From contig CANHSF010000006.1 of the NCBI GenBank assembly GCA_947463065.1, forward strand, positions 1 through 39,757: DNA of 39,757 nucleotides, written 5' to 3'. Origin of the DNA: Flavobacteriales bacterium (GTDB taxonomy: Bacteria > Bacteroidota > Bacteroidia > Flavobacteriales_D > Sanyastnellaceae). Position 1 is the first letter of the stretch, and every line of letters begins with the position of its first letter. This document shows positions 3,896 to 22,336 of this stretch, piece by piece. Made by a program: the position numbers and the translations under genes. Under the pieces are notes generated by a model. That model had not been told where the DNA came from. It searched no databases and saw nothing but the letters and a program-made list of their open reading frames with translations.

Positions 3896-5293
3896 ATGGA
3901 ATTTAAACCCTTTTCCGTCGTTAATCAATTTCTTAAGGAGAAACTTATCCTAGCTAGCCGATATAGCAATAAGGAGATTTCACTGCTTAAGATTTTTCAG
4001 CATGCCCTGTCATTCGCCATAGTCGGCAACGATGAGAAATTGATCAAGAATTACCTCCATCTTCCACTGTTTGTGCAAATTTTTATCTATCGGCTAAAAG
4101 GTTGGACCCGCCGCACAAGCAGATCAAAGGTGGCCTTGAAGTCAACGGTTATTTTGGATCCGGTGCGTTTGGTCAAAGACGAAAAAGGCGCATACCGATC
4201 CATCTATTTTGATCGCGTAGTAGCGGCATTGGGGCGTTCGCAAGTCAGTATTTTGCACCAACGTTCCAGCGATTTGATCCAAGGCGATTGCGATGTGACA
4301 CAATTGGACCGCAACTGGCCGGCTTTGGATGATGTGGAAAAAGAAGTGCTGAAACAAATCATCGGTGTGGTGAAGCGCAACAACAGCTTTCATTATTACA
4401 CCGCTTATGAGAAGAAGCACATCCTCTCGGCCCTTCATATTTTCTATGAGGATTTTCGGTTTTATTATCAATTGTTCAAAGGACAATCCATTGAACGCCT
4501 CATTTTTATTTGCCACTACCACAACGAAGGCTTATTGGCTGCTGCCAAAGCGTTGAATATTTTCACCATCGAGTTGCAGCATGGATTGATTGCGGACAAT
4601 GACTTGTACTATGTATATCACGAACAATTTGCGGGAAGTGTTCAGAACGCATTTTTCCCCGACCGCATCTTGGTGTACGGCCAGTATTGGAAGGGAATTT
4701 TGGAAAAAGGATGTGAGTTTCGCCCTAAGCAAATTCTCATCGGTGGAGATTATTTGTTTCGACTTCATGAACGGCGCGAGGACGCTTCGAAAAAGGAAAA
4801 TTTAATTTTGGTGTGTGCGCAAAAAACCTTGCACGAAGACTACGTGGGCTATGGTCGAATTTTGGCCAAACACGTGCAGGCTCACCCCGATTGGAAGGTG
4901 ATTGTGAAGTTGCACCCTCTGGAAAAAAACAAAGAAGAATATGAAGTTCTTCGCTCTTTTGGCTTTGAAATCGTTGACTTGGAATGGCCACTGGATGTTT
5001 TGCTGATGCGGTGTAAAATTCAGATCAGCATTTATTCCACCACTTTTTTCGATGCCGTGGGTTACGATGTGGTCAATTTTTCTTTGCAACACTTTGGCGC
5101 CAGCAGCGATTATGCCGCCGATATGGTTACCGAAGGCGTGGCCTTGCCTTTGGAAGTCAATCAAAACCCCATCGATGCCTACCACAAGGCGCGCATACAG
5201 CAGCCTGCTGTGTTGGGCCGAGAGGATGTGTATGCGCCGTTTGATCGCGATGCTTTCGTGCGCATGCTGCAAGTTCCTGGAAAGTTGTTGTGA
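3896..5293 (+). CDS. Capsule/surface polysaccharide biosynthesis-type glycosyltransferase-like protein
   Basis: 465 aa, 'ALNIFTIELQHGLIADNDLYYVYH', 'DRILVYGQYWKGIL', 'HPDWKVIVKLHPLEKN', 'IYSTTFFDAVGYDVVNF': GT-B/capsule-synthesis-like motifs. Confidence 0.55.
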   Translation: MEFKPFSVVNQFLKEKLILASRYSNKEISLLKIFQHALSFAIVGNDEKLIKNYLHLPLFVQIFIYRLKGWTRRTSRSKVALKSTVILDPVRLVKDEKGAYRSIYFDRVVAALGRSQVSILHQRSSDLIQGDCDVTQLDRNWPALDDVEKEVLKQIIGVVKRNNSFHYYTAYEKKHILSALHIFYEDFRFYYQLFKGQSIERLIFICHYHNEGLLAAAKALNIFTIELQHGLIADNDLYYVYHEQFAGSVQNAFFPDRILVYGQYWKGILEKGCEFRPKQILIGGDYLFRLHERREDASKKENLILVCAQKTLHEDYVGYGRILAKHVQAHPDWKVIVKLHPLEKNKEEYEVLRSFGFEIVDLEWPLDVLLMRCKIQISIYSTTFFDAVGYDVVNFSLQHFGASSDYAADMVTEGVALPLEVNQNPIDAYHKARIQQPAVLGREDVYAPFDRDAFVRMLQVPGKLL

Positions 5294-5418
5294 GGTGCTG
5301 CTTAGTAGTTGCTTTGCGATGTAGTTTTTACTGTGCGTCGATCCATTGTGCATGCCGGCAAAGAATATCAGTAACCCGAGCAATCTTTTGCAATACTTTC
5401 GTACAACAACACATGTGA

Positions 5419-5841
5419 ATGTTCTTCAATATGGAATGGTCTTATCAAACAATAGGGATCCTGATTTTGATTGGCATCCTCGCTGGCATGCTCAGTGGAT
5501 TCGTTGGAGTGGGAGGCGGTTTGGTGATTGTGCCCGCACTGATGTACTTTTTATCGCTCAACCAGTTTCAGGCGCAGGGAACCAGCTTGGCAGTGCTGAT
5601 GTTGCCAGTGGGTTTTTTGGGTGTGATCAACTATTACAAAACGGGCAATGTACACGTATCCTATGCCCTCTTCATTGCTGGTGCTTTTATTTTGGGAAGC
5701 TATTTTGGGAGCAAAATGGCTTTGCGGCTGCCGGAGTACAAAGTCAAGTTTTTCTTTGGACTATTGATGCTGTACATGGCCATCCAAATGATTTGGAAGT
5801 CGGGTGCCAAATGGTGGGGTGAAGCCCAAACGCCTTTATAG
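5419..5841 (+). CDS. Half-length TauE/SafE (TSUP) family membrane protein
   Basis: 140 aa, 'GILAGMLSGFVGVGGGLVIVPALMYFL...QAQGTSLAVLMLPVGFLGVINYYKTGNV': one TSUP repeat. Confidence 0.8.
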   Translation: MFFNMEWSYQTIGILILIGILAGMLSGFVGVGGGLVIVPALMYFLSLNQFQAQGTSLAVLMLPVGFLGVINYYKTGNVHVSYALFIAGAFILGSYFGSKMALRLPEYKVKFFFGLLMLYMAIQMIWKSGAKWWGEAQTPL

Positions 5842-9997: not shown

Positions 9998-10071
9998 GGT
10001 GCCCTAGGCAAGCCAAATCATTTGATGCGGCACGCCTCAGCCAACTCTACGATCATTAATTGGACTATACA

Positions 10072-13000
10072 ATGATACCAAGCCTTCGTGTTCTTATTCT
10101 TTTGGTCACTTCGTTTCTATTTGTGCATCACGTGCACGCTCAGTTGACCTTTACGCCCAGCAACAACTACATTCTCGACACCATTTGCCAGGGCCAGAGT
10201 ATTGATCATTGTTTCAACGTCACCAGCGCTGGAACTTCGCACAGCATCATCAACTTCGTCAACAACGACGGCACAATTGTGATCGCTCCAGTGTCCAATC
10301 CTTTTCAACGATGCTTCAGATATACAGCGCCTTTTGGATTTACTGGCGCCGATGCAGTGACCTTCACGTTGCAGAATAACTTGGGGCAAACGGGCACCTG
10401 CACCGTTACGATTTTCGTTGCCAACCCCAGCACACCTATTAATGCAGGGCCTGATCAACAACTCTGCGCCCCCACTTCTTCGTCCATTATGTCCACCACA
10501 TTGACCGCGATCGCTCCTGATCCGTTGGCCGATGGGTATTGGACCAAACTCACCGGTCCGGGTGTGATTTCAGGTGGATTTGATTCGCCAGCCATCGCAG
10601 GAGTGGACGATGATGGCGGTCCCACTGTGACCATCACGGGGCTTACCTTGGGGCAACACATTTACATCTACCGACAGCGTTATCCATGTGCCAATAATCT
10701 TGATTTGGTCACCATCAATGTCTACAACGGCAGTCCGCCGGTTGCCGATGCCAATATTTGTTTCCCGTCGCCACTCAACCACGCCGAAGACACAATCACG
10801 CTATGCGGCAGCAATTCGTACACCCTATGCGCCAACAATCCCGGTACGGCTGCTACGGGAACGTGGACCATTTTCTGCGGTTCGGGCAGCATTGCCAATA
10901 TCAACAATGCCTCGGCTACGATCAATAACTTGGGTATCGGTTGCAACTGCTTGGAATGGAATATTGGCAATGGTCCGTGTCCGGGTGGTGAAACCAAAGA
11001 CACCTTGACCATTTGCACTTATCCCACTGTTCAACCTGCTGTTTTGGGTGCCGATCTTGTGCGCTGTCTGGGTTCGTTTGCCAATGTAACGCTCTCCGGG
11101 AATACCCCGTCGGGTGCCAATACGGGTTTGTGGACATATGTGAGTGGTCCAGTTCCCATCAATATTGTGTCGCCCAACGCGGCAAATACGGTGACTACGG
11201 GATACACCGTGCCCGGGGTGTATTGCTTCAATTGGACCATTACCAGCGGACCGTGTGGAAGCAGTACCGATCAAATTTGTGTCTTGGTGCATGATCCCAA
11301 TACCCCCATTAATGCGGGACCGGATCAGACCATTTGTTTGCCGAGCAACGCCACCACAATGGCTGCCACTCCCTTGACTGGACCGGCCACCGGCACCTGG
11401 ACTGTCGTGCCTGGATTCGGCACAGGTTCTTTTGGCAATGCCAATTCACCCACCACTACCGTGACCGGCTTAAGCACAGGCATCAACCGATTCCGTTGGA
11501 CCGTGAGCAACGGAAGTTGTGCCAACAACGGAGCGAGTGACTTGATGGATATCTTGGTATATCCCGCTGCCCAACCCACCCCCAATGCAGGGGTTGATCA
11601 GTATTTGTGTTTTACAGGAACGCCCATGTCAACTTCGGTAACGGGTACTGCGCCAATAGCCCCAGGTACTGGGCTATGGACCATTTCACCATCGGCACCC
11701 ATCACTCCTTCGCCGTCTGCCTCTACCATTTCGGTCAGTGGACTTACACCCGGCGAATACACCTTGACTTGGACATTGAACAATGGTTCGTGCAGCCCAA
11801 GTGTAAGCGATCAAATGAAAATTTTTGTGTACAACAATACCGTTACAACCACCAATGCTGGACTCGATGTGAATTTGTGTACGCCTACCAATAGCGCCAA
11901 TATGGCCGCAACTCCCGCAGTTACTCCAGCTATCGGCACTTGGTCTGTAGTGCAGGGCGGCGGAACGTTCATCAGTCCAAATAGCCCTACGTCTGAAGTT
12001 ATTGCCATTCCGGTCGGCATTAATCGTTACCGTTGGACCATCAACACCATAGCCAATGCATGCGGTAGTTACTTTGATGAAGTCGTGGTCAATGTATTCG
12101 ACAATACGGCTACCACGGCCAATGCTGGGCCAGATCAAGAGTTTTGTAATTCCGGTGGATCGGTCAATGCCGTCATGGGGGCCAATGCGCCTGTCTCTCC
12201 AGCTACTGGTTCATGGAGCGGCTCACCATCTGTGTTGCCCGCCAATAGCAATGTAGGCGCAGTATCAGGTCTTCCTGTGGGGACCAATGTGTATACTTGG
12301 ACCATCAACAACGGTGCATGCGGATCATCCAGTGACAACGTGTCGCTGTTGGTTTATGGCCCTGGACAAACTGCTGCCAATGCAGGTGCAGATCAAGAAT
12401 TGTGTAGCAATAACCCAACGGCGGTTTTATCGGCCAACGCATTGGTGAATCCTGCAACAGGTCTTTGGCAAATTGTAAGTGGCGGCGGAACGCTGACCAC
12501 CCCCAACGCATCAAGCACCACCCTCACCGGCATTCCGGTTGGAATTACCACGTTGACGTGGACCATTGATAATGGACCTTGCGTTACTCCATCTGTATTG
12601 GTGGATACGGTGCGTATATTTATGTATAGCGTTGCGCAAACGCCTGCCAATGCAGGTTTAGACATCAACGAGTGCAGTACATCGGGCACCATCGCACTCA
12701 ACGGCAATAGCATCATTTTCCCTGCTGTTGGAACATGGACGGTAACACCGGCTGGTCCTGTTTTCGTTAATGCAAACGACCCGCAAACGACGGTGAGCAA
12801 TCTTACCCCGGGCACAACCTATACATTTACATGGACCATTGATAACGGTAATTTGTGTGGAACAACCAGCGATCAGGTGGTGGTCAATTACTACAACAAT
12901 GCGCAGTCCATTGCAAATGCTGGTCCCGACCAAGAACTTTGTACGCCAACCGCATCGACTGTTTTGGCGGCCAATGTCCCCGATAGCCCAGCAACAGGGA

Positions 13001-16000
13001 TATGGTCTGTTATCAGCGGACCCAATTCGCCCGTTTTCGGCGATGTAATTTCTCCAACGTCATCTTTGAGTAATCTTATCGTCGGCACGTACATCTTGAG
13101 ATGGACCACCAACAATGGCCCTTGTAACCCATCCATTACATTTGATGAAGTGTCCATATTTGTGTTTCCAAATGGAGGCAACGTGGCCACTGCTGGTGCT
13201 GACCAAGAAGTGTGTGAGCCAGTGAGTTCGGTGACACTTACGGGCAATGTATTGATAGGACCAGCAACAGGCACATGGTCGCAAGTATCAGGACCCAATG
13301 CGGCATTGATCAATAATCCGAATTTGAATCAAGTCACAGCTTCGAGTTTGATTGTTGGCTGCTATGTTTTCCGCTGGACGGTAGACAACGGCTCTTGCGC
13401 GGGCGCCATTACTTCCGACGATGTTCAGATTTGTGTGTTCGATGATAGCAACTTGATAGCGAATGCAGGGCCAGATCAAACGCTTTGCACCCCTGCCACG
13501 AGTACGACCTTAGCAGGCAGCGCGGTAATTTCACCTGCAATAGGTACATGGACTTTGGTAAGCGGCCCAAATACTCCTGTGTTCAGCGTCAATCAAAACA
13601 ACACGGCCATCAGCAATCTTATCGTAGGGACATATGTCATGCGGTGGACGGTGGACAACGGCCCCTGCTTCAATGGGCTGACCACCGATGAAATGACCAT
13701 TGAGGTCTTTAATTCTGCGGCTGCTGTGGCCAATGCGGGTATCGATCAGGAGATCTGTTCGCCGAATTCGCAAGTGGTGATGTCGGCCAATGCTGCCGTC
13801 TCTCCTGCTGTTGGAACTTGGACCCCAGTAATTGGTTCGGGTTCCATCGATGCGGTGAATGCCCCCAATACCGCAATTACGAACATCTTTGTAGGAACGA
13901 GCTGTTTTCAATGGACCATCGACAATGGCGGTTGTGGCAGCGGAACAACCTTCGATCAAGTGTGTATCGATGCATTTGGCAATCAACCTCCGGCCGATGC
14001 AGGCGTGGATCAAGATCTGTGCACGCCGCAATCAACAACGGCGTTGGAAGGAAATGCATTAATCGCTCCCGCTACTGGGCAGTGGACACAGATTTCTGGT
14101 CCGAATACCGTGACCTTTGCCAACGATGCAGACCCCTTGACCGATGTTTCTGGACTCACCAATGTGGGTTGTTATGTTTTTGAATGGACTATTTCCAACG
14201 GGGTGTGCGCCGATCCTATCACACGCGACACTGTTCAGGTTTGTGTGTTCAACAGCGGTTTTGACCCCGCTGACGCGGGTCTTGACCAAGAATTGTGCTC
14301 GCCTACTTCGACTACCGTTTTTGCCGCAACTGCCGCTGAGCCTCCTGGCCAAGGAACATGGACCGCCGATCCTGCAAACCCTTCCATAGCTACTATTGCC
14401 AACATCAATGATCCCAATAGCGCTGTTTCCAATCTCTCGGTTGGGGTATATACCTTTTATTGGGCTTTGAATTACGCTGCATGCGGTAGCGAAGATGACG
14501 CCGTTACCATTACGGTTTACAACAGCAATCAAACGGCTGCTGATGCTGGTGATGATGTGAGCCTATGCACACCTACGAGTTCGCAGGTTCTCGCGGCCAA
14601 TGCAATTCTACCTCCCGCCATAGGCACGTGGTCTACTCCCAATGGCGGTGTAGCATTCATCGATGCCAACGATCCCAATACAACGGTATTCAACCTCATT
14701 CAAGGCGTTGACACACTCATTTGGACCATTGATAACGGCTCTTGTTTGAGCCCCGAATTGTCGGTGGATACCATGTTGATTTTCCTCAATGATGTCAATC
14801 AACCTCTTGCCGATGCTGCACTCGATCAAGATTTTTGTACACCAACATCCACAGCGGTTTTGTTAGGCAGTGCGGTGATTTACCCCGGAACTGGTGTTTG
14901 GACATCAGTGGGTTCGGCTACTGTGGATAATCCCAATAGCAACACAACGGGTGTGAGCAATTTGGTGGTTGGTACAAATACGTTCTGCTATGAAGTGGAG
15001 AATGGAGCTTGTGTGCCGCCTTCGTCGCAAGATTGCGTTGATATCTTCATCAACGATGCCGATCAACTGCCTGCCAATGCAGGTCCCGATCAAGAGTTGT
15101 GCAGTAATCTTACAGATTGCGCAACGCTTGCAGGAAATGGTTTAATCTTTCCCGCAGTTGGCACTTGGACTGTGCTTGGCGGTCCGTCGCCATTGACATT
15201 TGCCAATGCCAATGATCCCACCACACAAGTCTGTGGATTGATGCCAGGAGTATATACTTTGGAATGGTGCATTGACAATGGATCGTGCGGTCCCATCACC
15301 TGCGATCAAATGACCATTACGGTATTTGACGATAGCGCTGAGCCCTCATCGGTGGGCGCAGACATTGAATTGTGTTCGCCCACATCCTCTCAAGTCATGA
15401 ATGCCAATGCGGTGCCGCTTCCCGGTTTTGGAGTATGGAGCGTAGTCAGCGGTGCGGGTGTTATATCTGCCGACGATGTGGATAATCCAGAGGCCTTGAT
15501 TACCGATATTCCAATCGGGATCAACGCATTTAGCTGGTGCATTTCCAACGGTGTATGTCCCGATGCCAACTCGTGCGACACACTGCTGGTGACCATTTAC
15601 GATGAAAATGCATTGCCCGCTGATGCCGGTGATGATCAGGATTGGTGCGAACCCACCTCGTGCGTAACAATGACGGCTGCTGTACCTACTTATCCAGCCG
15701 TTGGTACTTGGACAAGCCTCTCGGTGGGACCAACTGTTTCTGACCCGAATGATCCTTCGGCTGAAATGTGCAACCTGGGTGTTGGGGAATACTATTTCCT
15801 TTGGTCAGTGTACAATGGTCCATGCGACAACAGTGTCACCACTGATTTGGTGCGCATTCGAATTTTTGAAGAGAATCAACCTGCGGCCGATGCCGGTCCG
15901 GATTTCAATATTTGCACGCCGCAGTCGGTGGTAGATATGGTGGCAAACAGCCCCATTTTCCCAGCTACAGCTTCTTGGAATGCTTTGCCGGGAGGCAACG

Positions 16001-19000
16001 GAAACATTGCCGGTATTTCCAATCCCAATGCACAGATTACAGGTCTGTTGCCCGGCGAAAGTTGTTTTGTCTGGACCATCGACAATGGTCCATGCCTTCC
16101 ATCTATCACGTCGGATGAGGTGTGCATTCATGTGTTTGATGCGAATTTGCCTGAGGCCAATGCAGGAGAAGATATTTTCTTGTGCGCACCTGCAGGTGGT
16201 GCTTTCCTCAATGGATTTTTGACAGGTTCTGACTTGGGCGATGATCTGGCAACGGGTTTGTGGGAACAGGTCAGTGGCCCCAATACGGCGGTAATTTTGA
16301 GTCCTACCGAGAGCAACACGGTGTTGAATGGATTGACCATCGGAGATTATGTGTTTCGTTGGACCGTGGACAATGGAAGTTGTGGAACAACATCGGATGA
16401 GGTGGTGCTGCACGTCAACAATTCCAATGCGCCTCCTGCAGAAGCGGGCGAGGACGCTTACTATTGCACACCCGAGGATTGCCATGCGCTGAATGCCAAT
16501 GTTCCTGAGAACAATTCATTCGGCTATTGGAGCACATTGCCCGGAACGTCAGCATGTTTTACAGACATCAATAACCCAGGTTCGCAGGTGTGCTGCCTCA
16601 ATCCCGGTCAAACCATCTTCTTTTGGAATATCGACAACGGAGCGTGCGGACAAACCGTGGATGTGGTATCGGTCTTTATCTATTTTGAATTTAATCCCGA
16701 TGCCAATGCTGGTGTGGATCAAGAGATTTGTTTGCCGGCCACAGAGGTCACAATGAATGCCGAAGTGCCTCTGTTTCCTGCCCTTGGTGATTGGCAAGCC
16801 ATAGATGCTTGCGGCACCATTGGTGACTTGAATAGTCCAACATCGCTCATTTCCAATTTGTGTTTGGGAACGCATTGCTTTGTTTGGCGCGTTGACAATG
16901 GGCCATGCCCCAATGGAATCACCACCGATACCATGTGCGTGCGCGTATTTGATCCTTCTCCATCTGTTGATGCTGGCTTGGACTTGGATATCTGTACGCC
17001 GCAGAATTCGGTAGTGATGAACGCGAGCCAACCCAATGATCCCAATGTAGGAACATGGTATCTCATCAGTGGTGGAGGCACCATTGTGAACGCCAATGAT
17101 CCTGCTACTGAAATCACCGATCTCCCCGTGGGCATCAATTGCTTCCGCTGGGAGTACGACAATGGCCCGTGCGACATTGGTCTGCCTGCCGATGAATTGT
17201 GCATTGCGGTGTATCCCAATGATCATCCTGCGGCCGATGCAGGCGATGATGTCGAAATGTGCTTCCCCATCAACGATACTGTTCTAACAGCCAATACACC
17301 TATTGTTCCTGCTGTTGGATTCTGGACATTGATTCAGGGCAGTGGCACCATTGAGTCGGTCAACAACCCCACCACGGCTCTGACCGATATGGCGGTGGGC
17401 GACAATCTTTTGGTGTGGACCATTCTCAACGGCCCTTGCGAAAATGGCGTATTGACCGATACGGTCTTGGTGAAGGTGTTTCCCGAAAATCCACAAATTG
17501 CGAATGCCGGTTTGGATCAGTTCTTATGCACCCCGGAAAATCAAGTGTTGATGACTGCGACTGCACCAGTGGCACCGAGTTATGGTTTTTGGGAGGTGGT
17601 GTCTTTGGGCGGATTGCTCTTGGACTCGACCAATGCCACCGCGGAAGTCAGCTTCCTCGCTGTGGGCGAACACATTCTCCAGTGGCATGTGTACAATGGA
17701 CCATGTGATCCCGAAAGCGTTGACCCGATTACCATTTTGGTCAACGACAGCACGGCAGCACCCGCCGACGCCGGCCCGGATCAAATGCTGTGTGCACCGG
17801 ACAATGTGGTCACGATGGCTGCAAACGATCCCACATTCCCAGGATTTGGATATTGGACGCTGGGCAGTCACCCCGGCGATCCAGAAATTTTAACGGTGAA
17901 TAGTCCGACCTCGGAAATATTCGGATTGGAGATTGGAATTACAGAATTGATTTGGAATTTGGACAATGGAGCTTGTGGCATTACACAAGATACGGTGATC
18001 ATTATGGTCAACGATCCGCTTTCGCCTTTGGCCAGTGTGGACGAAGACCAGTTCTTGTGCGACATTCCAGCCAATGGATGTGTCGACCTGATTGGTTCGC
18101 AACCTTCCTTCCCCGCCTTTGGTTGGTGGGAACAAATTGCCGGTGACAATGTCGCCGATATTGCCGACACCTCTGCTTTTGGTACTTCGGCATGTGGACT
18201 TGCACTCAACGAATCGGCTTTTGTATGGAACGTTGCCAATGGCGCATGCAATGCTTTGTCTTCCGATACCATTTGGTTCTACATTTATGACAGTGCCATA
18301 GCAGGTGCCAATGCAGGCGCCGATACGGCTTTCTGTGGTGAGCAATCGATCTTCCAAACTTCAGGAAGTCAACTTACCGGAACGGTAACGGGATTGGCTT
18401 CGGGATTGTGGTTGCCCGTGGATGATGCGCCACCAATCGACAGCCAAGAGGATATGCCCGATGCCATTGTACTCAACTTGCCCGTGGGCGTGCATTGCTA
18501 TACGTGGAATGTAGACAATGGCGCATGCGGTGTCTCTTCCGATGAAATGTGCATCAGTATCTTCGATGATGGACTTGTACCTGCCAACGCGGGCCAAGAC
18601 ATGGATTTCTGCTCTTCGGATTTTGTGGAGTTTGCCCTCAATGGAACTCTGCCTGTCGCTCCGGCAACGAGCTCGTGGTCTGTGATCGAAGGACCTGCCG
18701 CTCTGCAGAATCCCAATCAATTTGATGCGACTGTATTGTCGCTGGGTGCGATTCAAACGGAGTTGGTGGATGTGATCAGCGTTTTACAATACACCGTGGA
18801 CAATGGCATTTGTGGCGTGACGTCGGATACGCTCTTGCTTGTGCTCAAGGATTGTGAGACGATTAAAGTCCCCGATGCCTTCTCGCCCAATGACGATGGC
18901 ACCAACGACGCGTTGGTGATTCCAAACATCGAATACTATCCACAGAATAGTATGAAGATTTTTAACCGTTGGGGCAATTTGGTGTACGAAGCAGCGCCGT

Positions 19001-19152
19001 ACAAAAATGAATGGCAGGGCGAATGCAATCAAACCGCCAGCTTGGGCGAGGAACTCCCAACCTCAACCTATTACTATATTCTTGATTTGGGTGAAACCAT
19101 GGAAGATGGACAGAAAATGGTGTTCAATGGATTTATTTACCTCAAACGATAA
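10072..19152 (+). CDS. Giant multi-module T9SS type B (gliding-motility-associated CTD) surface/secreted protein
   Basis: About 3,026 aa from ATG 10072 (the track uses TTG 10060). Signal peptide 'MIPSLRVLILLVTSFLFVHHVHAQ', an N-terminal Ig/cadherin-like domain 'FTGADAVTFTLQNN', about 31 tandem modules, and the C-terminal 'VPDAFSPNDDGTNDALVIPNIEYYPQNSMKIFNRWGNLVYEA..Y.NEWQG...TSTYYYILDLG......FNGFIYLKR', a type B CTD. Confidence 0.93.
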   Translation: MIPSLRVLILLVTSFLFVHHVHAQLTFTPSNNYILDTICQGQSIDHCFNVTSAGTSHSIINFVNNDGTIVIAPVSNPFQRCFRYTAPFGFTGADAVTFTLQNNLGQTGTCTVTIFVANPSTPINAGPDQQLCAPTSSSIMSTTLTAIAPDPLADGYWTKLTGPGVISGGFDSPAIAGVDDDGGPTVTITGLTLGQHIYIYRQRYPCANNLDLVTINVYNGSPPVADANICFPSPLNHAEDTITLCGSNSYTLCANNPGTAATGTWTIFCGSGSIANINNASATINNLGIGCNCLEWNIGNGPCPGGETKDTLTICTYPTVQPAVLGADLVRCLGSFANVTLSGNTPSGANTGLWTYVSGPVPINIVSPNAANTVTTGYTVPGVYCFNWTITSGPCGSSTDQICVLVHDPNTPINAGPDQTICLPSNATTMAATPLTGPATGTWTVVPGFGTGSFGNANSPTTTVTGLSTGINRFRWTVSNGSCANNGASDLMDILVYPAAQPTPNAGVDQYLCFTGTPMSTSVTGTAPIAPGTGLWTISPSAPITPSPSASTISVSGLTPGEYTLTWTLNNGSCSPSVSDQMKIFVYNNTVTTTNAGLDVNLCTPTNSANMAATPAVTPAIGTWSVVQGGGTFISPNSPTSEVIAIPVGINRYRWTINTIANACGSYFDEVVVNVFDNTATTANAGPDQEFCNSGGSVNAVMGANAPVSPATGSWSGSPSVLPANSNVGAVSGLPVGTNVYTWTINNGACGSSSDNVSLLVYGPGQTAANAGADQELCSNNPTAVLSANALVNPATGLWQIVSGGGTLTTPNASSTTLTGIPVGITTLTWTIDNGPCVTPSVLVDTVRIFMYSVAQTPANAGLDINECSTSGTIALNGNSIIFPAVGTWTVTPAGPVFVNANDPQTTVSNLTPGTTYTFTWTIDNGNLCGTTSDQVVVNYYNNAQSIANAGPDQELCTPTASTVLAANVPDSPATGIWSVISGPNSPVFGDVISPTSSLSNLIVGTYILRWTTNNGPCNPSITFDEVSIFVFPNGGNVATAGADQEVCEPVSSVTLTGNVLIGPATGTWSQVSGPNAALINNPNLNQVTASSLIVGCYVFRWTVDNGSCAGAITSDDVQICVFDDSNLIANAGPDQTLCTPATSTTLAGSAVISPAIGTWTLVSGPNTPVFSVNQNNTAISNLIVGTYVMRWTVDNGPCFNGLTTDEMTIEVFNSAAAVANAGIDQEICSPNSQVVMSANAAVSPAVGTWTPVIGSGSIDAVNAPNTAITNIFVGTSCFQWTIDNGGCGSGTTFDQVCIDAFGNQPPADAGVDQDLCTPQSTTALEGNALIAPATGQWTQISGPNTVTFANDADPLTDVSGLTNVGCYVFEWTISNGVCADPITRDTVQVCVFNSGFDPADAGLDQELCSPTSTTVFAATAAEPPGQGTWTADPANPSIATIANINDPNSAVSNLSVGVYTFYWALNYAACGSEDDAVTITVYNSNQTAADAGDDVSLCTPTSSQVLAANAILPPAIGTWSTPNGGVAFIDANDPNTTVFNLIQGVDTLIWTIDNGSCLSPELSVDTMLIFLNDVNQPLADAALDQDFCTPTSTAVLLGSAVIYPGTGVWTSVGSATVDNPNSNTTGVSNLVVGTNTFCYEVENGACVPPSSQDCVDIFINDADQLPANAGPDQELCSNLTDCATLAGNGLIFPAVGTWTVLGGPSPLTFANANDPTTQVCGLMPGVYTLEWCIDNGSCGPITCDQMTITVFDDSAEPSSVGADIELCSPTSSQVMNANAVPLPGFGVWSVVSGAGVISADDVDNPEALITDIPIGINAFSWCISNGVCPDANSCDTLLVTIYDENALPADAGDDQDWCEPTSCVTMTAAVPTYPAVGTWTSLSVGPTVSDPNDPSAEMCNLGVGEYYFLWSVYNGPCDNSVTTDLVRIRIFEENQPAADAGPDFNICTPQSVVDMVANSPIFPATASWNALPGGNGNIAGISNPNAQITGLLPGESCFVWTIDNGPCLPSITSDEVCIHVFDANLPEANAGEDIFLCAPAGGAFLNGFLTGSDLGDDLATGLWEQVSGPNTAVILSPTESNTVLNGLTIGDYVFRWTVDNGSCGTTSDEVVLHVNNSNAPPAEAGEDAYYCTPEDCHALNANVPENNSFGYWSTLPGTSACFTDINNPGSQVCCLNPGQTIFFWNIDNGACGQTVDVVSVFIYFEFNPDANAGVDQEICLPATEVTMNAEVPLFPALGDWQAIDACGTIGDLNSPTSLISNLCLGTHCFVWRVDNGPCPNGITTDTMCVRVFDPSPSVDAGLDLDICTPQNSVVMNASQPNDPNVGTWYLISGGGTIVNANDPATEITDLPVGINCFRWEYDNGPCDIGLPADELCIAVYPNDHPAADAGDDVEMCFPINDTVLTANTPIVPAVGFWTLIQGSGTIESVNNPTTALTDMAVGDNLLVWTILNGPCENGVLTDTVLVKVFPENPQIANAGLDQFLCTPENQVLMTATAPVAPSYGFWEVVSLGGLLLDSTNATAEVSFLAVGEHILQWHVYNGPCDPESVDPITILVNDSTAAPADAGPDQMLCAPDNVVTMAANDPTFPGFGYWTLGSHPGDPEILTVNSPTSEIFGLEIGITELIWNLDNGACGITQDTVIIMVNDPLSPLASVDEDQFLCDIPANGCVDLIGSQPSFPAFGWWEQIAGDNVADIADTSAFGTSACGLALNESAFVWNVANGACNALSSDTIWFYIYDSAIAGANAGADTAFCGEQSIFQTSGSQLTGTVTGLASGLWLPVDDAPPIDSQEDMPDAIVLNLPVGVHCYTWNVDNGACGVSSDEMCISIFDDGLVPANAGQDMDFCSSDFVEFALNGTLPVAPATSSWSVIEGPAALQNPNQFDATVLSLGAIQTELVDVISVLQYTVDNGICGVTSDTLLLVLKDCETIKVPDAFSPNDDGTNDALVIPNIEYYPQNSMKIFNRWGNLVYEAAPYKNEWQGECNQTASLGEELPTSTYYYILDLGETMEDGQKMVFNGFIYLKR
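10438..18852 (+). repeat. Array of ~31 protein-level tandem modules (~80-100 aa each) inside the giant CDS
   Basis: Recurring A(N/D)AGxDQxLC...(P)A(T/V)GTW...NPxxxxxxxL.xGxYxFxWTxDNGxC......D.V.IxVF. All modules counted have the 'xxC' after GxDQ and the NGxC cysteine. Diverged at DNA level. Confidence 0.9.
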
Positions 19153-19156
19153 TCAA

Positions 19157-20110
19157 ATGCAGACCAAAAAAATGAAAAAGAATACGATTGTTGGTTTACT
19201 CTGCTGTGCATGTGCACTATTGGGTCAATTGCGTTTGACGGCTCAACAAGATCCCATGTTTACCCAATATATGTTCAACACTTTGAGCATCAATCCGGCT
19301 TATGCGGGGAGCAAGGACTTTTTGAGTGCCACGGCCATTCACCGCTCGCAATGGGTCAATTTTGAAGGTGCGCCTGTGACGCAGTCGGTAACGGTACATT
19401 CTCCATTGCGCAACGAGAGCATCAGTTTGGGCGGAACCATCATCAACGATGCATTCGGGCCCGTCAAACAATCAGGGATTTACATCGATGCGAGCTACCG
19501 CATTTTTATGGGCAACCGTCGCTTGGCATTCGGTATCAAAGGGGGCTTGAATTTGTTCAGCGCGAATTTGATGGACTTGAATCCGTTGGAAGAAAACGAT
19601 GCCTCTTTCGCCGGCAACATTGCCAATAAACCCTTGCCGAATTTTGGGGCAGGCGTGATGTATTACACCCGACGTTGGTACGTGGGCGCCAGTGTACCCA
19701 AATTGTTGTCCAACAAATTGCTCAGCGGCGATTTGCCCGATTACAGCGGGGTCAATAACAAAGAAATTCCACATGCTTTTTTGATTGCCGGCGGTGTGTT
19801 TGATGTCAATCTGTACACCAAATTCAAGCCGACCATTTTGGTGAAAGCCGTCAGTGGTGCACCTATCGCGGCAGAAGCGACCGGTCAATTTTTGTTCTAC
19901 GATAAGTTTTGGGCCGGATTGATGTACCGTTGGCAGGATGCTGCTGGGGTCTTGTTGCAATACGAAATCAATCGCATGTTCAAAGTGGGCTATGCGTTTG
20001 ATTACAGTTTATCCGATATCCGAAAATACAGCGACGGTTCACATGAAATTATGCTGGGATTCGATCTCAACCGCGGCAAAACTGGCGATGTTTCACCGCG
20101 TTATTTCTAA
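19157..20110 (+). CDS. PorP/SprF-family type IX secretion-associated outer membrane protein
   Basis: 'QQDPMFTQYMFNTLSINPAYAGSKDFLSATAIHRSQWVNFEGAPVTQSVTVHSPL' is the hallmark PorP/SprF N-terminus. Start reset to the ATG 5 bp after the giant gene. Confidence 0.93.
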   Translation: MQTKKMKKNTIVGLLCCACALLGQLRLTAQQDPMFTQYMFNTLSINPAYAGSKDFLSATAIHRSQWVNFEGAPVTQSVTVHSPLRNESISLGGTIINDAFGPVKQSGIYIDASYRIFMGNRRLAFGIKGGLNLFSANLMDLNPLEENDASFAGNIANKPLPNFGAGVMYYTRRWYVGASVPKLLSNKLLSGDLPDYSGVNNKEIPHAFLIAGGVFDVNLYTKFKPTILVKAVSGAPIAAEATGQFLFYDKFWAGLMYRWQDAAGVLLQYEINRMFKVGYAFDYSLSDIRKYSDGSHEIMLGFDLNRGKTGDVSPRYF

Positions 20111-20122
20111 AGACACATTATC

Positions 20123-22336
20123 ATGAGCACATCCATTCTCAACCGTATATCTATGATCCATTGGAGAGTTGTCATTCTTCTTGTTGCATGCCTCACGTCG
20201 GGTGCTGCTCACGAATGCGCAGCCCAAAAGGGCAAACTCAATATTGCAGACCAGTACTTCATGGCGTTTGATTTCAAAAGCGCTGAAAAGGTGTATGCCG
20301 ATATCTTGGCATCGGCCAAACACGCCAACGATACATTGCCATTGCGACGCATTGCCTATTGCCAAACCAAAACCGGCAATTGGGTAAAAGCAGAAGCCAA
20401 TTACAAACGTTTGATCGCAATGAACATGGGCAAGCCAACCGATTATTTGGGGCTGGCCGAAGTGCTCAAACTGCAAGGAAAATACACGGAGGCGATAGAG
20501 GTTTACAATAAGCTGTTGGTTGTACAGCCCGACAACGGTATCGCCAAAGTATACAAGAACAACGTCGATTTTGCGGAGCGCATCGTCCGAGACAGTGCCA
20601 TTTACCGATTGCGTTGTGCCAACATCAATTCGCCGTATTCCGATTTTGGTCCGGGCTTTTTTGTGGATGGCAAGGTACTTTTTGCATCCAGCCGCGGTGA
20701 TGGTTCAAAAAATCAGTCCATTTATGCTTGGAACAATCAGCCTTTTCTCAATATGTTCATGTGCGACGTGTCGGCGGATACCACATTGCAAAACGCAAAA
20801 CCCGTTGCGGATGAAATGATCACCCGCTTGCACGAGGGAACCATGACCTATGCGCCTTCCTCCAATACGATTTACTATACTAAAGAAAATTTGCGCAAAG
20901 GAGATTTTGATAAGATCAAAGGTGGACGCCGCAATCTGGGCATCTACAGCATCACATACAATACATCAGAAGGAAAATACGGCGAGGAAAAGGACTTCGC
21001 CTTCAATAATCGCAATTACTCACTGGGCAATCCCACACTCACTCCCGACGGAAAACGCCTGTACTTTGTCAGCGATATGCCAGGTGGTTTCGGTGGAACG
21101 GACATCTATTATTCCAATTGGAACGATTCGGTGTGGAGTGCACCCGTCAATTGCGGCAACAAGATCAACACCCTCGCCGATGAGCTTTTCCCTTTCGCAG
21201 TGTCTTCCGATATGTTGTACTTCTCATCCAATGGGCATTTGAGCATCGGTGGATTGGATGTGTTTTATACCAACCCGAATGATAGTTCGGTTGTGAAAAA
21301 TATCGGATACCCGGGCAATTCGCATTACGATGATTTTGCTCTGATTTGTTATCCCAATGAAACCAAAGGCTTTATCTGTAGCAATCGCCCTGGTGGCCAA
21401 GGCGACGACGATATTTATGAGTTTACCATCAAACCGGTCGATGAGGTTTTTGTATCGGGCGTGGTCACCGATAAGAATACCTTAGAACCTGTAGTCAATG
21501 CGACTGTGATGGTGCCCGCGGAAGACGGTTCGATGATCGAAGTGAAAACCGACGACAAAGGCCGCTATCAAATCACTGTGCCCTACAAGGATATCATTGA
21601 ATTGGAAGCCAGCAAGCCCATGTATCTGAGTGGAAAATCATCGCGGAAAGCTGACCCGCGTTCCTCCTACATGGACGGTTTCAATATTGAGATGCAAAAA
21701 ATCGATTGGATGACATCGGGTCGGGTGATTTTCGATGCTGATGGGAAGCCGGCTGTAGGTGCTATTGTGATTTTGAACGAATTGTTGGGCAACGATACCT
21801 TGGCTGTCGATACCATTACCATTGGTGCCGATGGCAAATACATGTGGCCATTGCAAGCGAATAAATCGTATTTGACCGTGGCATTGAAGGAAGGCTACAG
21901 CCGCATGACCGAACGTTTTGCGACCAACAATCCTTCGCAAAAAGTGCATACCCGCGACTTTAAATTGTTCAAGTTGGAAAAAAACACTACAGTAAAAGTG
22001 GAGAATATCTACTACGACTACAACAGTGCTGTTCTCAAACCGGAGTCAGCGGTGGAATTGAATAAACTTGTCAATATTCTGCGCGACAATCCAACCATGC
22101 GAATCGAATTGGGCTCACACTCGGATTCACGCGGTGGCGATGCCTACAACCTTACCTTATCCGAGAAGCGTGCGAAAAGTGCTGTGGATTATCTTGTGGG
22201 ACAAGGCATTGCCAAGGATCGCATGGTGAGCAAGGGCTATGGTGAAACCGGGCTGCTCAATCGCTGCGATGATGGTGTGACCTGCACAGATGAAGAACAT
22301 GCAGTGAATCGCCGAACTGAATTTAAAGTCCTTTAG
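20123..22336 (+). CDS. TPR - PD40 beta-propeller - carboxypeptidase-regulatory-like - OmpA domain protein (PorE-like architecture)
   Basis: TPR-like N-terminus, 'NPTLTPDGKRLYFVSDMPGGFGGTDIY' propeller motif, 'GVVTDKNTLEPVVNATVMV...DDKGRYQITVP', and OmpA 'NIYYDYNSAVLKPESAVELNKLVNILRDNPTMRIELGSHSDSRGGDAYNLTLSEKRA'. Confidence 0.9.
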   Translation: MSTSILNRISMIHWRVVILLVACLTSGAAHECAAQKGKLNIADQYFMAFDFKSAEKVYADILASAKHANDTLPLRRIAYCQTKTGNWVKAEANYKRLIAMNMGKPTDYLGLAEVLKLQGKYTEAIEVYNKLLVVQPDNGIAKVYKNNVDFAERIVRDSAIYRLRCANINSPYSDFGPGFFVDGKVLFASSRGDGSKNQSIYAWNNQPFLNMFMCDVSADTTLQNAKPVADEMITRLHEGTMTYAPSSNTIYYTKENLRKGDFDKIKGGRRNLGIYSITYNTSEGKYGEEKDFAFNNRNYSLGNPTLTPDGKRLYFVSDMPGGFGGTDIYYSNWNDSVWSAPVNCGNKINTLADELFPFAVSSDMLYFSSNGHLSIGGLDVFYTNPNDSSVVKNIGYPGNSHYDDFALICYPNETKGFICSNRPGGQGDDDIYEFTIKPVDEVFVSGVVTDKNTLEPVVNATVMVPAEDGSMIEVKTDDKGRYQITVPYKDIIELEASKPMYLSGKSSRKADPRSSYMDGFNIEMQKIDWMTSGRVIFDADGKPAVGAIVILNELLGNDTLAVDTITIGADGKYMWPLQANKSYLTVALKEGYSRMTERFATNNPSQKVHTRDFKLFKLEKNTTVKVENIYYDYNSAVLKPESAVELNKLVNILRDNPTMRIELGSHSDSRGGDAYNLTLSEKRAKSAVDYLVGQGIAKDRMVSKGYGETGLLNRCDDGVTCTDEEHAVNRRTEFKVL

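Follow-up and report, generated by a model that had tools for sequence, protein, structure and literature searches.

The I-band of titin is a giant tandem array of immunoglobulin (Ig)-like beads, and some of these carry additional, variable Cys that could form disulfides, an F-G pair among them; the Cys of the titin B/F/G triad are buried core residues at three fixed positions, and only one of the three is present in 24 of the 101 I-band Igs (PMC5766482). More generally, across 300 protein families, non-conserved disulfides were found to turn over among homologues, with coil connections dominating and with both Cys aligned to residues of conserved regions in only 3% of the cases (Thangudu 2008, PMC2628669). 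Here we examine a giant bacterial protein that extends this theme. It is encoded in a 39,757-nucleotide stretch (hereafter, the window), positions 1 to 39,757 of contig CANHSF010000006.1, the sixth contig of a 3.06-Mb, 87% complete metagenome-assembled genome (MAG) of a Flavobacteriales bacterium (GCA_947463065.1), whose closest named relatives are other Flavobacteriales MAGs. A single open reading frame of 3030 amino acids on the forward strand (10060-19152, with the ATG at 10072 as the likely start) encodes an N-terminal domain, 31 PKD-like modules, and a C-terminal CHU_C domain. About half of the modules carry extra Cys, and these come in facing pairs, each occupying one of a set of fixed slots. 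Such a pattern was not described in the literature that we searched, a search that left out most subscription papers. By analogy, the titin triad is the closest counterpart in design, but, unlike those buried residues, the Cys of this array face outward, occupy about nine slots, and are practically always paired; and unlike the disulfides surveyed by Thangudu, they are located on or beside aligned strands.

The K319L-like PKD domain (PF22352) matches the giant protein with 266.7 bits against a gathering cut-off of 27 and belongs to the same sequence family and fold as the solved human domain 2yrl and the PKD domains of AAVR (6nz0/7kpn), with template modeling (TM) scores of about 0.7-0.8; a Foldseek search with the AlphaFold2 (AF2) model retrieved PKD domains and the base of GhpA, the best PDB match being 2yrl (E 7e-6, TM 0.78). 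Among bacterial proteins, GhpA of Aureispira sp. CCB-QB1, known from cryo-electron microscopy (9flp; base, 9fly), has eleven modules of this family between residues 4764 and 5726 (4764-5726), and the C-terminal end that comes after them is homologous as well. Modules of the window protein, 12661-13740 and others, are homologous to this region, so that solved structures of homologues exist. The homology does not span the full length of GhpA: only residues 4651-5898 match significantly, the first approximately 4600 residues show no significant match to the giant protein, and there is no evidence of a hook or a heptamer in the window protein. The human domain 2yrl aligns without a Cys at the first core position of the bacterial modules, and variable pairs of facing Cys characterize the bacterial arrays.

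The 31 modules, of about 90 residues each (~10450-18870, forward strand, as are all features below), share a core Cys pair at profile columns 6 and 65, the second Cys of module 6 being displaced to column 67 by a loop indel. In this numbering, the conserved Trp is column 58 (module 17 carries Tyr instead) and the aromatic residue of the next strand is column 79. The original prediction, read from the sequence alone, had proposed four alternative Cys pairs with offsets from these two landmarks that always add up to the same value, and re-alignment of all 31 modules reproduced these pairs exactly. The W-5/F-2 pair (53-77) is present in modules 2 (C295-C319), 11 (C1101-C1125; 13360-13434), and 14 (C1371-C1395; 14170-14244); the W-3/F-4 pair (55-75), in modules 3 (C389-C407; 11224-11280), 13 (C1282-C1302; 13903-13965), 21 (C2002-C2022; 16063-16125), 24 (C2273-C2293), 25 (C2361-C2381; 17140-17202), and 30 (C2813-C2831; 18496-18552); the W-1/F-6 pair (57-73), in module 17 (C1643-C1659; 14986-15036); and the W+1/F-8 pair (59-71), in modules 18 (C1737-C1748) and 19 (C1827-C1839; 15538-15576). 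The columns of each of these F-G pairs sum to 130, and all 12 modules with an extra Cys in the F strand also carry the facing Cys in the G strand, leaving no half-pair, as had been claimed. When the G-strand Cys were permuted among the window modules, an average of 1.8 matches was expected, whereas 12 were observed (P 1e-5, the lowest value that 100,000 shuffles can give), and, given that both Cys are present, the probability of the shared register is 3e-5.

The F-G hairpin is not the only site of such pairs, and here the earlier catalogue, although right for F-G, was incomplete, having missed four other slots. A pair between strands B and E (11-47) occurs in modules 18 (C1687-C1725; together with the F-G pair, 15118-15303), 20 (C1868-C1904; 15661-15771), 23 (C2141-C2178), and 29 (C2674-C2712; 18079-18195). 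Module 23 additionally contains the pair 35.5-48 (C2166-C2179; both pairs, 16480-16596), and module 24 combines the pair 33-50 (C2251-C2268) with its F-G rung (16810-16938). In module 2, the rung 53-77 is accompanied by 31-55 (C273-C297; both, 10876-11016), so that the "additional Cys" noted in this module is one half of a second pair; we consider it paired because 31-55 occurs alone in module 2 of a related array, L022. At the junction of modules 1 and 2, C234 and C257 probably form a further pair.

Whether the paired positions face each other was judged in two independent ways, from the DSSP register of AF2 models and from mean-field direct coupling analysis (DCA), rather than from Cys-Cys distances. 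The models of modules 11 and 18, with predicted local distance difference test scores of 92.5 and 92.7, place the F-G columns on one antiparallel hairpin (E54-63/E71-81 and E55-64/E71-81, respectively) and the B-E columns on another strand pair (E12-15/E45-49 and E12-16/E46-50), the strand ends of both modules agreeing with those registers; in the model of module 18, C62-C73 lie on register 64+71 and C12-C50 on register 16+46. The DCA was run on 766 modules free of any extra Cys and nevertheless ranked 57-73 first, 33-50 second, and 53-77 seventh, while 13-45, 31-55, and 55-75 were among the top 30 pairs. The mean F-G score peaked at column sum 130 (1.73, the next being sum 128 with 1.07); for B-E, the peak was at sum 58. 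Given that most of these slots are top-ranking contacts even in modules without extra Cys, they do face each other, regardless of whether Cys occupies them. Columns 53/55/57/59 and 71/73/75/77 alternate with the core columns 56/58/60 and 74/76/78, so by position the rung columns point outward; column 55 is hydrophobic (Val/Ile) in most modules, and column 77 is often Phe. The proposal of one hairpin, one register, and one face thus holds.

Searches of the GTDB family of the window and of named genome contigs, with a two-module query among those used, yielded a set of 28 arrays, including the window, with 850 modules, which were thinned to 326 modules at less than 60% identity. In the thinned set, pairing is complete for F-G (27 of 27), for B-E (11 of 11), and for 33-50 (three of three). 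Cys faces Cys in the F-G slots 27 times against 0.71 expected, and no other residue type pairs in this manner, the next best being Gln (38 against 15.5 expected). With the Cys of the last module set aside, 817 of 829 modules have an even Cys count. Exactly 31 modules are found in 18 arrays (L011, L016-L021, L057, L068-L076, and the window, 10450-18870). Tandem repeats seldom show such constancy across many genera; module numbers of 38, 41, or 51 occur in a few relatives. In 30 of 31 cases, the best match of a window module is the same-numbered module of L021 (G008), and this agreement falls to 13 of 31 for L011 and to 0-2 of 31 for the most distant arrays tested; orthology by number is therefore firm only among the closer arrays. 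In the partial array of a genus mate, L023, the rungs are identical to those of the window in every module covered.

The history of the rungs was traced by parsimony on a tree of the 18 31-module arrays and L023, scoring 25 rung-in-module characters. These characters require 25 changes, and no leaf has a half-rung. About half of the rungs are common to the window clade and L021, and the rest are found on one of these sides alone, in L016 alone, or in L011/L019 alone; the absence of rungs in most arrays favours gain over loss, on parsimony only. The original prediction had envisaged a rung that moved along the hairpin. This was not supported: among the same-numbered modules of the 19 arrays, none exchanged one F-G rung for another, rungs appear and vanish whole, and sliding within a module was accordingly rejected, so that the different rungs are better read as installed independently at different slots. 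Taken together, the alignment, the DCA, and the array tree reveal intra-module pairs of Cys in facing, contacting positions that are gained and lost together. We consider it very probable that these are cross-strand disulfides on the solvent face of PKD-fold beads, each introduced as a complete pair at a facing slot that was already there, the bonding as such being predicted from the sequences.

In this scenario, each PKD-fold bead would be closed by the core disulfide, and approximately half of the beads would acquire one or two more, each linking two residues that directly face each other on adjacent antiparallel strands and point to the solvent. The slots available for such staples would be 53-77, 55-75, 57-73, and 59-71 on the F-G hairpin, 11-47 and, in relatives, 13-45 between B and E, 31-55 between C and F, and the edge pairs 33-50 and 35.5-48. 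Most of these already exist as coevolving cross-strand pairs, with a Cys pair being one more filling beside Arg-Glu, Gln-Gln, Val-Thr, and other combinations, the three named being enriched at 57-73 (4.4-fold, 2.5-fold, and 2.4-fold, respectively). Many modules would have gained a Cys pair independently in the lineage of the window genome and its nearest relatives, with half-pairs either short-lived or not tolerated. A staple likely shortens the unfoldable stretch and stiffens the bead against pulling and proteolysis. Conceivably, although we would put it somewhat below even chances, lone surface Cys are purged from an exported array with more than 100 Cys, such that a new disulfide has to arrive with both of its Cys.

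An alternative account of the missing half-states is that gene conversion copies the hairpin, or a longer stretch, between modules, without any selection against single Cys. The two Cys of an F-G pair are no more than about 75 bp apart, close enough for a single short tract to bring both, and rung-bearing hairpins are slightly more alike than other hairpin pairs (45-46% against 40%). However, hairpins with the same rung are no closer to each other than those with different rungs (46.1% against 45.1%), although the test is weak and age could erase the signal; the near-perfect number-by-number match to L021 also speaks against copying, and a tract of more than 100 bp would be needed for the B-E pairs. 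Gene conversion as the sole cause was rejected on hairpin similarity, weak as that test is, and we regard this explanation as unlikely. Far less probable still is that the co-variation merely reflects descent from a small number of ancestral modules that carried Cys and were copied along the array. The modules are indeed paralogues, and the sharing of rungs between the window clade and L021 fits common descent, but at least six distinct slots show complete pairing, which persists below 60% identity, pairs recur in rung-poor arrays (module 27 of L011/L019, module 23 of L016, L012/L013, and L022), and same-numbered modules differ by whole pairs.

Some observations weigh against cross-strand disulfides built only as complete pairs. 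With the Cys-bearing modules removed, slots 11-47 and 59-71 fall outside the top 30 DCA pairs. The relatives contain a small number of unpaired extra Cys, at column 49 (module 3 of L011, L016, and L019), column 54 (L069), and columns 34 and 44 (L022), and one core Cys has been lost in module 19 of L022. No VKOR was detected in the window MAG, at its 87% completeness, or in 39 of 40 relatives, a search that did not extend to DsbB or other oxidases; and there is one full DSBA match, which its SDIACPFCLIGK motif, judged by eye, marks as FrnE-like rather than a periplasmic DsbA. In favour of bond formation, disulfides between SprF and GldK have been shown to form in Flavobacterium, in the type IX secretion system (T9SS)/gliding apparatus (PMC12635249). 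Two side observations concern unusual Cys. The unpaired column-49 Cys of L011, L016, and L019 occupies a position that is normally a buried Leu. In module 5 of L021, core Cys 6 is lost and a new Cys is present at column 81, which DCA couples with column 7; this new Cys may have replaced the lost one as the partner of Cys 65.

Binding of metal ions by the Cys pairs, or by sets of four, seems highly improbable. In its favour, module 24 carries two extra pairs, possibly on one edge, and module 23 has adjacent Cys at columns 47 and 48. Against it, the extra Cys number only two in most modules, where they sit on neighbouring strands and face the solvent, His is never opposite His at rung columns, the protein is exported, and the many separate slots each fit one two-Cys bond. 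Equally improbable are bonds between modules or chains instead of staples within modules, which some Cys lacking a partner in their own module might suggest (column 81 of the last module and C234 at the boundary of modules 1 and 2), given the even Cys counts per module and the facing contacts inside one fold.

The remainder of the locus indicates how the array reaches the cell surface. The C-terminal CHU_C domain (residues 2935-3030; 18862-19149) scores 57.4 bits against a Pfam cut-off of 35 and, as TIGR04131, 92.3 bits against 27 in NCBIfam, which also assigns the giant protein to T9SS type B. The adjoining gene (19007-20110, with the real start probably at ~19157-19172, after the giant open reading frame) encodes a PorP/SprF-family carrier (259.3 bits against 90.55). 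The CHU_C domain and this neighbour point to export via the T9SS, and the giant protein would be a T9SS-exported, bead-on-a-string protein of the cell surface, putatively an adhesin. Its N-terminus, MIPSLRVLILLVTSFLFVHHVHAQ, is hydrophobic by eye, and the N-terminal domain (10138-10450) has four Cys (C43, C51, C85, and C114) and no Pfam match. The SprB repeat is not among the Pfam matches of the giant protein at E 0.01, and the Cys-X-Cys tail motif of SprF (PMC12635249) was not found in the carrier, whose tail, ...RGKTGDVSPRYF, lacks Cys. Downstream lies a PorE-like protein with TPR, PD40, carboxypeptidase-regulatory, and OmpA domains (20123-22336), for which the best NCBIfam matches are under the cut-off. 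A lone, conserved Cys at column 81 (C2932 in the window, 18853-18855) precedes CHU_C in the last module of nearly all arrays, with no partner in that module, whereas C2989, inside CHU_C, was added in the genus of the window alone.

Disulfides are usually fixed in a fold, whereas here one bacterial fold offers interchangeable stapling sites that are used bead by bead, in beads that are kept in register across genera. The slots provide candidate positions for engineered staples in PKD and Ig beads, and the arrays, a data set for the evolution of a two-residue feature in which no half-step is seen. If lone Cys are indeed purged, the orthologous 31-module arrays would amount to an experiment run by nature, with some 25 independent staplings spread over about nine facing slots, and the route of disulfide evolution, be it a double step, copying, or fleeting intermediates, would become directly testable.

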